Assembly (NCBI RefSeq): GCF_025685395.1
Contig: NZ_JAGSYA010000004.1
Location: 1,922,001-1,986,000 of the forward strand
DNA from: Terriglobus tenax
GTDB taxonomy: Bacteria; Acidobacteriota; Terriglobia; Terriglobales; Acidobacteriaceae
Length of the DNA stretch: 64,000 nucleotides
Reading direction: 5' to 3'
Of this stretch, positions 15,794 to 19,333 are shown in pieces. Both the position numbers and the translations under genes were made by a program. Positions within the stretch are counted from its first letter, which is position 1. Every line of letters begins with the position of its first letter. Below the pieces are notes generated by a model. That model saw nothing but the letters and a program-made list of their open reading frames with translations, was not told the origin of the DNA and searched no databases.

Positions 15794-16192
15794 TTAGGCC
15801 CGGCCCAGGACGCGGTCGTACACGTAGCGGTCGCTGGTGGTTCCCAGGGCTTCGTTGTACAGCACGTTGGCGCCGATGATCTCCTTCAACTCTTCGCTGA
15901 AGGTATGCAGCTGGCGCAGATTGTCCGCCGTGGCGGGAATCTCCGTGTGGCCGGCCTTGAGGAACTTCTGATAACCCTTGTCGACCAGCCGGGCGATCTC
16001 GCCCTTCAGAAGCCAGCCCGGGCGCACCGTGATCTCGGTGGTTCCGTCGGTGGCGGAGCGAACCTCAGCCGCGCAGCCATACTTGGAAACGCGCTTTGCA
16101 CCATTGGCGCCAGCGGAAACATCAAATTTCTGATTCCCCAGGGTGGACAACACCTGGTCGAACTTCGGCTGCTGCTGTGTCTTTCGGGCCAT
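15794..16192 (-). CDS. Conserved-looking hypothetical protein
   Basis: 132 residues with no signal peptide or membrane helix. A basic start MARKTQQQPKFDQVL is followed by a beta-rich middle (KYGCAAEVRSATDGTTEITVRPGW) and a helical end (ADNLRQLHTFSEELKEIIG, then LGTTSDRYVYDRVLG). I do not recognise the family. It is divergent from the cysteine biosynthesis operon with a 73-base shared upstream region. Confidence 0.7.
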   Translation of the reverse strand: MARKTQQQPKFDQVLSTLGNQKFDVSAGANGAKRVSKYGCAAEVRSATDGTTEITVRPGWLLKGEIARLVDKGYQKFLKAGHTEIPATADNLRQLHTFSEELKEIIGANVLYNEALGTTSDRYVYDRVLGRA

Positions 16193-16265: not shown

Positions 16266-17219
16266 TTGCAGACAGAAACCCACATTTCTGGCGCCACCAG
16301 GCTGGGCTCCTCCGTGCTCGACCGCATCGGCAACACTCCCTTGGTCCGCCTGGAGCGCGTCGCCGCCCACCTGCCCGGCATTACGCTACTGGGTAAAGCG
16401 GAATGGGCCAATCCCGGCGGTAGCGTGAAAGACCGCCCGGCCAGCAACATTGTGCTGAACGCGCAGGCTGAGGGCAAACTCGTCCCGGGCAAGCACCTGC
16501 TGGACGCCACCAGCGGCAACACCGGCATTGCGTACGCCATGCTGGGTTCGGCTCTTGGTTTTCCGGTGACACTGTGCCTGCCGTCCAATGCTTCTCCTGA
16601 GCGCAAGAAGATCCTCGCCGCCTATGGCGCGAACATTGTCCTGACGGACCCGGCTGACGGCTCCGACGGCGCCATCCGCATGGCCCGCAAGCTGGCTGCC
16701 GAGGACCCGGACAAGTACTTCTACGCGGACCAGTACGGCAACAACAACAACTGGCAGGCGCATTACAAAACCACCGCCAACGAGATATGGGAACAGACTG
16801 CCGGCAAGATTACCCACTTTGTCGCCGGCCTGGGCACCAGCGGCACCTTCATGGGCACCACCCGCCGCCTGCGCGAGCTGAACCCTGAAATCCAGTGCAT
16901 CAGCATGCAGCCGGACTCGCCTTTCAACGGCCTGGAAGGCCTGAAGTATATGCCGACGGCGATCGTTCCGCCGATCTATGACCCGGCCCTTGCCGATCGC
17001 CTGATGGAAGCCTCCACCGAGGAGGCCTACACGATGGCCAAGCGCCTGGGCCGCGAGGAAGGAATGCTGGTTGGCGTCTCCGCGGCCGCCAACATTGCCA
17101 CCGCTCTGCACGTGGCCGAAGAGCTGCACACGGCTGGCAAAGAAGCCGTCATCGTCACCATCCTCTGCGATTCCGCGGACAAATACCTGAGCGAACGGTT
17201 CTGGCAGGAATCAAAATGA
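16266..17219 (+). CDS. cysM: PLP-dependent cysteine synthase, CysM type (CysO-linked operon)
   Basis: 317 residues from a TTG start. The PLP lysine is in GGSVKDRPA (K55), the phosphate/substrate loop is SGNTGIAYA, and GLGTSGTFMGTTRRLRE is the glycine-rich PLP phosphate loop. The protein matches the cysteine synthase B/CysM branch. In actinobacteria the CysM of a mec-cysO-cysM locus uses O-phosphoserine and a thiocarboxylated CysO carrier instead of free sulfide; the same partners follow here, with the JAMM gene overlapping by 4 bases. Use of O-phosphoserine versus O-acetylserine cannot be read from the sequence with certainty. Confidence 0.92.
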   Translation: MQTETHISGATRLGSSVLDRIGNTPLVRLERVAAHLPGITLLGKAEWANPGGSVKDRPASNIVLNAQAEGKLVPGKHLLDATSGNTGIAYAMLGSALGFPVTLCLPSNASPERKKILAAYGANIVLTDPADGSDGAIRMARKLAAEDPDKYFYADQYGNNNNWQAHYKTTANEIWEQTAGKITHFVAGLGTSGTFMGTTRRLRELNPEIQCISMQPDSPFNGLEGLKYMPTAIVPPIYDPALADRLMEASTEEAYTMAKRLGREEGMLVGVSAAANIATALHVAEELHTAGKEAVIVTILCDSADKYLSERFWQESK

Positions 17220-17671
17220 AGCTGCACATTACACAATCCGACTACGAGGCCCTGCGCGTCCACGGCGAAGAGACCTATCCGCACGAGTGCTGCGGGGTTC
17301 TGCTGGGCCATGCCAGGGACGACGGCAACCATGTTGCCGCCATCGTCCGCGCGGGCAACACGCGTACCGACTCGGCGCACAACCGCTACAACATCTCGCC
17401 CATGGAGCTGATCAAGATTCAGCGTGAGGCCCGCAAGCAGGGCTACGACATCGTCGGCTTCTACCACTCGCACCCGGACCACCCGGCGATGTGGTCGTCG
17501 ACCGATTTCGCCGAAGCGCACTGGTTTGGCTGTTGCTACGTCATCACCAGCGTCGAGAAAGGCAAGTCTGTTTTGACCAACGCCTTTCACCTGAGCGGCA
17601 CCACGGAAGAGGATAAAGCCTTCCAGCACGAAGAGATTCTTATTACCCAGGCAGCAGGAGAGAACGCATGA
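17216..17671 (+). CDS. mec: JAMM/M67-family metallopeptidase (Mec+ type)
   Basis: 151 residues. Zinc-site residues are visible: catalytic Glu in PHECCG (E24), His-x-His in HSHPDHP (H84, H86), and Asp in MWSSTDF (D97). The known Mycobacterium Mec+ cleaves cysteine from the CysO-cysteine adduct; relatives in Pseudomonas (QbsD) and Wolinella (HcyD) trim extra residues beyond Gly-Gly of their carrier. It overlaps cysM by ATGA and overlaps the carrier gene by ATGA, so the three are translationally coupled. Here it may do both jobs, because the carrier has a C-terminal extension. Confidence 0.92.
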   Translation: MKLHITQSDYEALRVHGEETYPHECCGVLLGHARDDGNHVAAIVRAGNTRTDSAHNRYNISPMELIKIQREARKQGYDIVGFYHSHPDHPAMWSSTDFAEAHWFGCCYVITSVEKGKSVLTNAFHLSGTTEEDKAFQHEEILITQAAGENA

Positions 17672-17976
17672 AGATCAACATCCCCACGCCGCTGCGCGCC
17701 TTCACGGACAAGCAGGCCACCGTTGAGGTAGCCGGCGAAACCGTACAGGCCGGGCTGGACGCCCTGGTTGCCGCGCACCCGGAGCTGAAGAACCACCTGT
17801 TCACCGCCGACGGCAAGCTGCGCAGCTTCGTCAACGTCTACCTGAATGACGACGATGTCCGCTACCTGCCCAACACGGAAGCCTCCGCCGTCAATGCCGA
17901 CGACGAACTGACGATTATCCCCAGCATTGCCGGTGGGACTGGCGTACGTGCTTCACGCAGTCTTTGTTGCCGCTAG
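17668..17976 (+). CDS. cysO: CysO/MoaD-like sulfur carrier with 12-residue C-terminal extension
   Basis: 102 residues, ubiquitin-like fold. FVNVYLNDDDVRYL and DDELTIIPSIAGG match CysO closely; in CysO the chain ends in Gly-Gly, whose carboxylate is adenylated and turned into a thiocarboxylate. Here Gly89-Gly90 is followed by TGVRASRSLCCR before the stop at 17974-17976. The tail is basic and has two cysteines. The sequence right after it is an inverted copy of an interspersed repeat, so insertion of the repeat may have removed the original stop. The adjacent JAMM peptidase could cut after Gly90. Without such processing the carrier should be inactive. Confidence 0.9.
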   Translation: MKINIPTPLRAFTDKQATVEVAGETVQAGLDALVAAHPELKNHLFTADGKLRSFVNVYLNDDDVRYLPNTEASAVNADDELTIIPSIAGGTGVRASRSLCCR

Positions 17977-18087
17977 ACAAAGACAGAAGCAGATCCCTAC
18001 GGGATGACAAACAAGAAAAGCAAACGATAATCCAGGGCGAATCACGAATCCCGGTGCCCCATTCCTACGCGAAGCGAATGAGTGGGA
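17977..18087. repeat. Compound interspersed repeat between cysO and moeZ
   Basis: ACAGAAGCAGATCCCTAC and GGGATGACAAAC (17983-18012) are the inverse of the CTTTGTCAT...TCTGCTTC units at 5252 and 5311. CGGTGCCCCATTCCTACGCG and GAATGAGTGGGA (18052-18087) match the unit at 5356-5391. The pair separates moeZ from the tight part of the operon. Confidence 0.7.
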
Positions 18088-18118
18088 GATGCAACCACCC
18101 AAGCCGAAGGAAACTGTA

Positions 18119-19333
18119 ATGCCAGACCTGAAAGAAGTCGCACTCCCAGAACTCTCGAACGACGAAATCTCGCGCTACTCCCGCCACCTGATCCTGCCCG
18201 AGGTGGGCTTTGAGGGCCAGCAGAAGCTGAAAGCCGCCAAGGTGCTGTGCGTTGGCACTGGCGGACTGGGCGCTCCGCTGGCTTACTACCTGGCCGCGGC
18301 GGGTATTGGAACGCTGGGCCTGGTGGACTTCGACGTGGTGGACGCCAGCAACCTGCAGCGCCAGATCATTCACTCCACCTCGACCGTCGGCATGCTGAAG
18401 GTCGACTCCGCCGAAAAGAAGCTGAAGGACCTGAACCCGTACCTGAACGTGGTGAAGCACAACACCATGCTGCGCAGTGAGAACGCGCTGGAGATCTTCA
18501 GCGGCTACGACATCATTGCCGACGGCACGGACAACTTCCAGACGCGTTACCTGGTGAACGATGCCTGCGTTCTGCTGAACAAGCCGAACATGTACGGCTC
18601 CATCTTCCGGTTCGAGGGCCAGGCTTCGGTCTTCGCCACCGAGGAAGGCCCCTGCTACCGCTGCCTCTATCCCGAACCGCCACCGCCGGGCCTGGTGCCT
18701 TCGTGCGCGGAGGGCGGCGTGCTCGGCATCCTGCCGGGACTGGTCGGCGTCATCCAGGCGACTGAGGTCATCAAGCACATCCTCGGCATTGGCGAGCCGC
18801 TGGTTGGCCGCCTGCTGCTGGTGGACTCGCTTGCCATGAGTTTCCGCACGTTGAAGCTGCGCAAGAACCCCAAGTGCCCGATGTGCGGCACGCGCGAGAT
18901 CAAGGAGCTGATTGACTACGACCAGTTCTGCGGCATCGCACCGCCCACCACCACCGGCCCGCTGGAAGTACAGCAGCACGCGGCTGTAGGGGATGTTCCC
19001 GTACAGGACGGCATCCCGCAGGTCAGCGTGGAAGAGCTGAAGGCCAAGCGCGATCGCGGCGACGATTTTGTCCTGATCGATGTGCGCGAGCCACATGAGT
19101 ATCGCATCGCGAACCTCGGCGCTCCGCTGTTCCCGCTGGGAGAGCTTGGCGCGAAGCTGCTGGAGTTGTCGCAGTACAAGGACAAGGAAGTGCTGGTCCA
19201 CTGCCGCAGTGGCGCTCGCAGCCAGAAGGCAGCGCTTGAGCTAAAGGCGGCGGGCTTCAGTAATGTGAAGAACGTTGCCGGAGGCATCCTCGCCTGGGCC
19301 GATAAGATCGATCCGACGATGCCCAAGTACTAA
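18119..19333 (+). CDS. moeZ: MoeZ-like sulfur-carrier adenylyltransferase/sulfurtransferase (ThiF plus rhodanese)
   Basis: 404 residues from ATG at 18119 (AAGGA upstream); an upstream ATG at 18089 lies in the repeat and is rejected. The ThiF/E1 domain has the ATP loop GTGGLGAPLAYYLA (about residues 46-59), DxD-like DFDVVDASNLQRQ, and two zinc pairs (CYRC and CPMC). The C-terminal rhodanese domain (about 290-404) has DVREPHEY and the active-site loop HCRSGARSQ with the persulfide Cys at 362. The enzyme would adenylate the carrier's C-terminal Gly and transfer sulfur to it. Position and domain order match MoeZ of the CysO pathway; it may also serve MoaD or ThiS. Confidence 0.93.
   Translation: MPDLKEVALPELSNDEISRYSRHLILPEVGFEGQQKLKAAKVLCVGTGGLGAPLAYYLAAAGIGTLGLVDFDVVDASNLQRQIIHSTSTVGMLKVDSAEKKLKDLNPYLNVVKHNTMLRSENALEIFSGYDIIADGTDNFQTRYLVNDACVLLNKPNMYGSIFRFEGQASVFATEEGPCYRCLYPEPPPPGLVPSCAEGGVLGILPGLVGVIQATEVIKHILGIGEPLVGRLLLVDSLAMSFRTLKLRKNPKCPMCGTREIKELIDYDQFCGIAPPTTTGPLEVQQHAAVGDVPVQDGIPQVSVEELKAKRDRGDDFVLIDVREPHEYRIANLGAPLFPLGELGAKLLELSQYKDKEVLVHCRSGARSQKAALELKAAGFSNVKNVAGGILAWADKIDPTMPKY

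Follow-up and report, generated by a model that had tools for sequence, protein, structure and literature searches.

The analysed window, a stretch of 64,000 nucleotides from a contig of Terriglobus tenax, contains four plus-strand genes that span positions 16266-19333 and code for a PLP enzyme resembling CysM, a JAMM peptidase, a carrier resembling CysO and an E1-rhodanese. The PLP enzyme (16266..17219, +) belongs to the cysteine synthase family (Pfam PALP, 6.5e-69) and reaches 342 bits with the NCBIfam model cysM, which is below the cut-off of 394. The start of the JAMM/Prok-JAB peptidase gene (17216..17671, +; Prok-JAB, 2.9e-22), the proposed maturase of the carrier, overlaps the stop codon of the PLP enzyme gene (ATGA), and its end likewise shares four bases (ATGA) with the start of the carrier gene. 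The carrier is a CysO-like ubiquitin-fold protein of 102 aa with residues beyond Gly-Gly (17668..17976, +; Pfam ThiS, 6.4e-10). It is followed by an E1-like adenylyltransferase with a rhodanese domain (MoeZ-like; 18119..19333, +; Pfam ThiF 1.2e-80 and Rhodanese 6.1e-14), the start of which (18119) was picked from its ribosome-binding site. The gap between carrier and E1 holds a copy of an interspersed repeat (17985..18024, +), the part of the query that most of the 44 genome matches cover, and a second repeat at about 18035-18091, seen in a few further genome matches. Upstream of the operon, a divergent ORF of 132 aa (15794-16192, -) is located, for which no Pfam or NCBIfam match was obtained. 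The operon looks built for cysteine.

The C-terminus of the carrier reads IIPSIAGG-TGVRASRSLCCR-stop. Pfam ThiS covers residues 4-90 (profile positions 2-76 of 76), and the protein combines a beta-grasp fold and a conserved Gly-Gly with extra residues, as is typical for capped carriers. The best PDB match is 4n6e_B, followed by 3dwg_C (4e-13, residues 3-90), a chain named 9.5 kDa culture filtrate antigen, which we take to be mycobacterial CysO. In the alignments, both chains end at the Gly89-Gly90 pair (17932..17937, +), and the last residue of 3dwg_C aligns with Gly90, after which cleavage is proposed. The preliminary description, according to which the carrier continues past SIAGG where the mycobacterial homologue ends, was thus correct. 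The similarity to 3dwg_C extends over the whole carrier domain, as expected for a CysO of the mycobacterial type, whereas a product of this type should end at Gly-Gly, which the 102-aa carrier does not. We infer that it acts like CysO once trimmed. The tail TGVRASRSLCCR (17938..17973, +) comprises 12 residues, is predicted to be disordered and is followed by the stop codon TAG (17974-17976, +). In the AlphaFold model, confidence is high over most of residues 1-88, while the pLDDT falls below 50 from residue 89. An inserted repeat as origin of the tail was ruled out, since the interspersed repeat begins at 17985, beyond the stop. In a close relative (G013, locus L036), what seems to be a short MITE-like insertion with inverted repeats and CTAG on either side was noticed by eye directly past the carrier stop.

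The JAMM peptidase has the motif HSHPDHPAMWSSTD and an upstream Glu, both intact. By position, the ligand codons are E24 (17285-17287), H84 (17465-17467), H86 (17471-17473) and D97 (17504-17506), all on the plus strand; E24, H84, S85, H86 and D97 are invariant among 20 sequences. A JAMM with intact E, HxH and D ligands thus adjoins the carrier, which is what a capped carrier calls for, and HxHx(10)D is kept almost throughout the JAMM genes found in carrier loci. The structure model of the peptidase (pLDDT 88.6) matched 2kcq (Mov34/MPN/PAD-1 family) at rank 1 among PDB folds; further matches were BRCC36, Rpn11 and P. furiosus JAMM1 with SAMP2, and a bacterial Ubl-deubiquitinase complex was found at rank 50. 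One Prok-JAB gene was found in the source genome.

Tails are present at the same position in four other genomes of the genus (TGLSASRALCCR in two of them, TGRPGVGASRVLCCR and RTGRPGVSASRALCCR). The comparison of carrier C-termini in relatives that had been suggested at the outset showed that all four end with ASRxLCCR, while small length changes adjoin Gly-Gly. Between the carrier body and that of each relative, 6 of 90 codons differ nonsynonymously and 30-33 synonymously. Four ThiS-family genes exceed the Pfam cut-off in the source genome, namely the carrier, a paralogue with the end GG-CC, ThiS with a tail of 16 residues (SNPIHVRSSDTGGRSR) and MoaD without a tail; a GG-ending copy of the carrier was not found there. 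The paralogue (L143, 2187-2468, -) ends with SIAGG-CC; judged by eye, the gene upstream of it, also on the minus strand, codes for a threonine-synthase-like PLP enzyme. Its relatives within the genus show the ends GG-CV, GG-CK, GG-C, GG-AR or GG-LR.

Across 84 Acidobacteriota carrier loci, for which one source search supplied the best 80 of 107 loci with a pattern (SIAGGTGV) that includes tail residues, we counted 60 short tails of 1-26 residues, 22 carriers fused in frame to the E1-rhodanese (some of them broken off within E1 by the contig end), one GG-ending and one unreadable carrier. Near-copies such as L149-L151 were retained in the locus counts, while L044, which is also fused, was dropped. 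L063, L064, L065 and L086, which repeat a genome, were left out of the tail counts, and L032 is the same gene as L143 and was tallied among the paralogues instead of the CysO-like tails. The early suggestion of a new, longer pro-form can be kept only in part, since short tails of up to 26 residues or E1 fusions are usual in the Acidobacteriota loci read. Among 43 loci whose titles name other groups, we observed 36 short tails, 2 fusions and 5 GG-ending carriers. On a tree with 88 rows, the fused or separate state requires 11 changes, at least 5 of them forced by supported branches, which indicates that the frame past Gly-Gly is easily opened or closed. The 26-residue carrier tail of L058 includes VIPSGARDPG and resembles, by eye, translated interspersed-repeat DNA. 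For L099, the record title is Woeseiaceae and its phylum sample repeats Acidobacteriota genomes with identical coordinates, so that title and placement in the genome collection are in conflict.

A JAMM that exposes Gly-Gly should also release the remaining carriers of its cell from the need to end at this pair. The initial expectation that ThiS and MoaD always end with Gly-Gly was overturned by tailed relatives, and these two carriers became the main test. In the source genome and 60 relatives, a JAMM was detected in 60 of 61 genomes; a tail or fusion was present in 43 of 58 ThiS (all matches) and in 29 of the 30 MoaD that were read out of 57 matches. An evenly drawn phylum sample of 109 Acidobacteriota genomes (completeness at least 90%) was then compared by JAMM state. 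JAMM matches from 1e-15 to 1e-6 were classed as ambiguous and tallied separately, and Prok-JAB matches over 1e-6 were treated as RadC-like based on frame length and range. In this sample, 81 of 93 ThiS matches and 78 of 95 MoaD matches were read. The counts exclude G000, G024 and G031, of which 4 ThiS (3 of them tailed) and 2 of 3 MoaD were read among the relatives. Matches that were weak, partial or second ones were likewise omitted (8 for ThiS, 14 for MoaD), and 8 of these came from JAMM-negative genomes.

ThiS was tailed or fused in 22 of 40 genes from JAMM-positive genomes compared to 0 of 37 from JAMM-negative ones; the 22 comprise 18 short tails and 4 long fusions (ThiG-like by eye). For MoaD the values were 29 of 44 and 0 of 31, with 14 short tails and 15 long fusions (MoaE-like by eye). 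Pooled, 51 of 84 genes read were extended in the presence and 0 of 68 in the absence of a JAMM (p 3e-18 by gene), leaving 33 of 84 genes GG-ending in JAMM-positive genomes. When family-and-state cells were compared, 14 of 25 had tails against 0 of 20 (p 3e-5), and the association persists without the family of the source genome. In genomes with an ambiguous JAMM, 0 of 4 ThiS and 1 of 3 MoaD were extended, the latter being a fusion in G083, whose weak JAB match runs across most of the profile; scoring the ambiguous genomes as JAMM-negative yields 1 tailed gene in 75. With descent accounted for on an 84-genome tree, a model with dependent evolution of tail and JAMM outperformed the independent model (LR 30.7, p 2e-7), with a tail gain of approximately zero without JAMM. 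Among 4000 simulations with independent traits, the 1417 that yielded a comparable number of tails never produced JAMM-negative tips free of tails. The independent-pair test of tail against JAMM found only 3 supported pairs. In G068 (C4:181341-181972, L384), a MoaD fusion gene adjoins a JAMM gene on the same strand, which is an alternative layout of the pairing.

The rule is weaker outside the Acidobacteriota and is not universal. Most CysO loci titled as other groups show a JAMM gene, and in 22 genomes reached via such loci none of the 24 ThiS matches (20 over the cut-off) had a tail; G166, with a ThiS tail of 8 residues, falls within the Acidobacteriota sample and was excluded from this count. 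A JAMM of the actinobacterial type therefore does not accompany ThiS tails, and the presence of a JAMM alone is insufficient. Probably, JAMM subfamilies differ in their targets.

Taken together, we regard it as likely that the JAMM trims the tail or tails and thereby frees Gly-Gly for the E1-rhodanese, and that JAMM-bearing genomes alone tolerate tails. The carrier gene would yield a pro-carrier, which the JAMM encoded directly upstream would cut after Gly90. The exposed Gly-Gly could then be adenylated and thiocarboxylated by the downstream E1-rhodanese for cysteine synthesis. From the sequences and their statistical dependence we infer the cleavage, its site and the service of one enzyme to all carriers. 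The role as maturase put forward in the preliminary description is strongly supported by the dependence of tails on JAMM, and this dependence, together with the sole Prok-JAB gene found, makes the peptidase the likely maturase of several carriers. The same JAMM probably trims the paralogue (GG-CC) and the tailed ThiS; on the simplest reading, one JAMM would mature three carriers of the source genome, including that of thiamine. As the peptidase would create the end, the stop codon would no longer be bound to follow Gly-Gly. Tails could drift, or the frame could run on into the next enzyme, which would be affordable only with such a JAMM.

The CysO-like tails have a distinct composition, and the two terminal cysteines, singled out early as worth noting, turned out to be the best lead. 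In the source genome, tandem Cys codons (TGT TGC; 17965..17970, +) precede a single Arg codon and the stop. Cys makes up 82 of 423 residues (19%) in the 60 short CysO-like tails. For comparison, continuing the frame of the tail past its stop gave 13 Cys in 702 residues, and translating the tail DNA in its alternative frames gave 32 in 832. The excess is not clear in tails of ThiS (2 of 79 residues in the phylum set, 8 of 199 in the relatives) and MoaD (2 of 51 in the phylum set). Tails of other groups contain 11 Cys in 222 residues and paralogue tails 9 in 28, and the linkers of 25 fused proteins have 0 Cys in 488 residues. The codons are biased as well: UGU was found 68 times and UGC 14 times in CysO-like tails, compared to 54 and 486 in the longest ORF per locus, while the remaining pyrimidine-ending tail codons end 78 times with T and 152 times with C. 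In 34 of 40 tails with Cys, UGU outnumbers UGC, and its distribution over the frames, Cys frame first, is 68:9:6 (13:2:0 in tails with a single UGU). In the few Cys residues of other-group tails a UGU bias was not seen (UGU 2, UGC 9), and in the paralogue tails it is not clear (UGU 5, UGC 4). Of the 82 Cys in the 60 tails, 49 lie within the three codons before the stop. The median distance to a fixed E1 motif is 170 bases for Cys-bearing tails against 90.5 (37 and 20 loci, p 0.001). All p-values on residues or codons assume independence and are descriptive. A P1' Cys as the sole cause of the enrichment was rejected, because Cys is the first residue in only 11 of 60 tails.

These data bear on the alternatives to maturation by the JAMM. 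Another protease or spontaneous cleavage might trim the tails, with the JAMM being Mec-like and confined to conjugates or the CysO-Cys product. CysO-Cys is the substrate of mycobacterial Mec, and both the position of the JAMM gene, which has the cysteine-synthase-like gene on one side and the carrier on the other, and the lack of ThiS tails in the CysO-locus genomes of other groups (0 of 24 matches) favour such a role; ThiS and MoaD tails that track the JAMM (51/84 vs 0/68) speak against an enzyme restricted in this manner, and we consider the explanation improbable. The tail could also be a neutral 3' read-through, meaningful only in being tolerated by the JAMM. This suits ThiS and MoaD, whose tails lack a clear Cys excess and differ in sequence among relatives, but not the CysO-like tails, given their Cys content relative to both controls and the in-frame UGU bias; as a general account, it has little probability.

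Retention of the tail as a functional Cys-rich C-terminus that binds a metal, a thiol or a partner, so that Gly-Gly stays covered throughout, would agree with the Cys enrichment and with the conservation of ASRxLCCR in five genomes. However, the carrier shares an operon with an E1-rhodanese, and known activation requires a free Gly end. Moreover, the length of the short tails varies between 1 and 26 residues, 22 carriers continue into E1 with Cys-free linkers, and a need for the amino acid leaves the preference for UGU unexplained, so that we regard retention as very unlikely. The possibilities raised at the outset that the tail reflects decay, a stop codon lost by sequencing error or an unused duplicate next to GG-ending relatives can practically be dismissed. 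The carrier body is conserved with the tail kept, four same-genus genomes share the tail and none of them is GG-ending, and a GG-ending copy was not found in the source genome; the repeat, relative, codon and paralogue comparisons gave no support for any of the three.

The UGU-Cys pattern fits a codon that is read by the ribosome better than a required amino acid. Maturation by the JAMM could accordingly be combined with a bolder proposal, namely that the tail is a disposable sensor, in which tandem UGU codons would stall ribosomes when Cys-tRNA is scarce and would tune the downstream E1, and which the JAMM would afterwards remove. A regulatory leader peptide would then be welded to its enzyme partner rather than encoded by a separate small ORF, and the cysteine-codon sensor would be lost where carrier and E1 fuse. 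As in an attenuator, Cys codons are clustered at the end of an ORF before a sulfur gene; a separate small regulatory ORF is absent, the codons finishing the carrier gene itself. An 8-bp perfect inverted repeat (GTCTTTGT/ACAAAGAC; 17960..17984, +) surrounds the stop, with the loop at 17968-17976 and a z of -2.7. Over the 40 Cys-bearing tails, stop-centred hairpins were not stronger than in downstream control windows (mean z -0.38 vs -0.45); z was slightly lower than in 20 Cys-free tails (+0.25, p 0.04). Pairing of the stop region with the Shine-Dalgarno sequence of E1 was no better than in shuffles (mean z -0.06, 35 Cys tails). Rfam yielded no match at the gathering score in 12 loci, and one weak match (E 2.2, bits far under the cut-off) in the stretch of the source genome. 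As the hairpin and E1-pairing tests gave no support, attenuation is put forward only tentatively, as the boldest reading and with a rather low probability. Canestrari and others are said to have described attenuation in mycobacteria in 2020. Passages of PMC4633059 propose cysteine-codon small ORFs upstream of mycobacterial cysA2 as possible attenuators. These resemble the present case in the clustering of Cys codons at the ORF end before a sulfur gene, but the mycobacterial ORF described there is small and separate, whereas here the codons finish a structural gene, in a tail that a peptidase could remove.

Among known systems, HcyS/HcyD is a capped sulfur carrier system, while CysO, CysM and Mec form a pathway in mycobacteria. 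The latter is similar in its carrier (3dwg) and in the cysteine-synthase-like and JAMM neighbours; the mycobacterial CysO chain stops at Gly-Gly, unlike the carrier described here, and the JAMM motif of actinobacterial loci reads mostly HSHTH...PSPTD instead of HSHPDHPAMWSSTD. The removal of short carrier caps by JAMM-type proteases is already known, and the relevant passages of PMC6006322 describe capped PtmS2 beside the JAMM-family PtmS1, with QbsD likewise of JAMM type. QbsE/QbsD and PtmS2/PtmS1, as presented there, share with our locus a carrier of the ThiS/MoaD fold, residues after Gly-Gly and a JAMM-family neighbour. The Ptm caps given in this source are no longer than two residues (MV for PtmS2, C for PtmS3) compared to 12 here and up to 26 in relatives. 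In contrast to QbsE and PtmS2, the present tails contain many Cys residues encoded by UGU, and ThiS and MoaD are included in the link. DRJAMM cuts MoaD-MoaE of Deinococcus and leaves a C-terminal Gly, according to excerpts of PMC8832034, which is comparable to the MoaD-MoaE-like fusions (partner by eye) in JAMM-positive Acidobacteriota genomes and in G083. Beyond this system, the Acidobacteriota also have CysO fused to E1, and three of their carriers bear short tails. The sections of Iyer et al. 2006 (PMC1779556) on operon type 4c list the identical four-gene set, with ThiS/MoaD, E1-rhodanese, JAB and cysteine synthase, in the acidobacterium 'Susi', suggest that the JAB might free fused ThiS/MoaD and report ThiS-ThiG fusions for many proteobacteria; the account of type 4c in these sections is without tails, an association test or Cys codons.

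Such carrier tails in Acidobacteria were not found in the open-licence PMC literature. As far as open-licence papers show, the dependence of tails on a JAMM across several carriers, the fusion of CysO to E1 next to a JAMM and the tails with UGU-coded cysteine are new here. If the proposed maturation is true, the suggestion that prokaryotic JAB proteins free fused carriers (PMC1779556) would become directly testable via auxotrophy, and the genome rule 'no JAMM, no tail' would predict which carriers need the peptidase. The cysteine-codon tail, if it acts as proposed, would be a control element inside a protein-coding gene that is later cut off. Under the proposed maturation, a single small metalloprotease would gate sulfur transfer to cysteine, thiamine and molybdopterin in many members of this large soil phylum.
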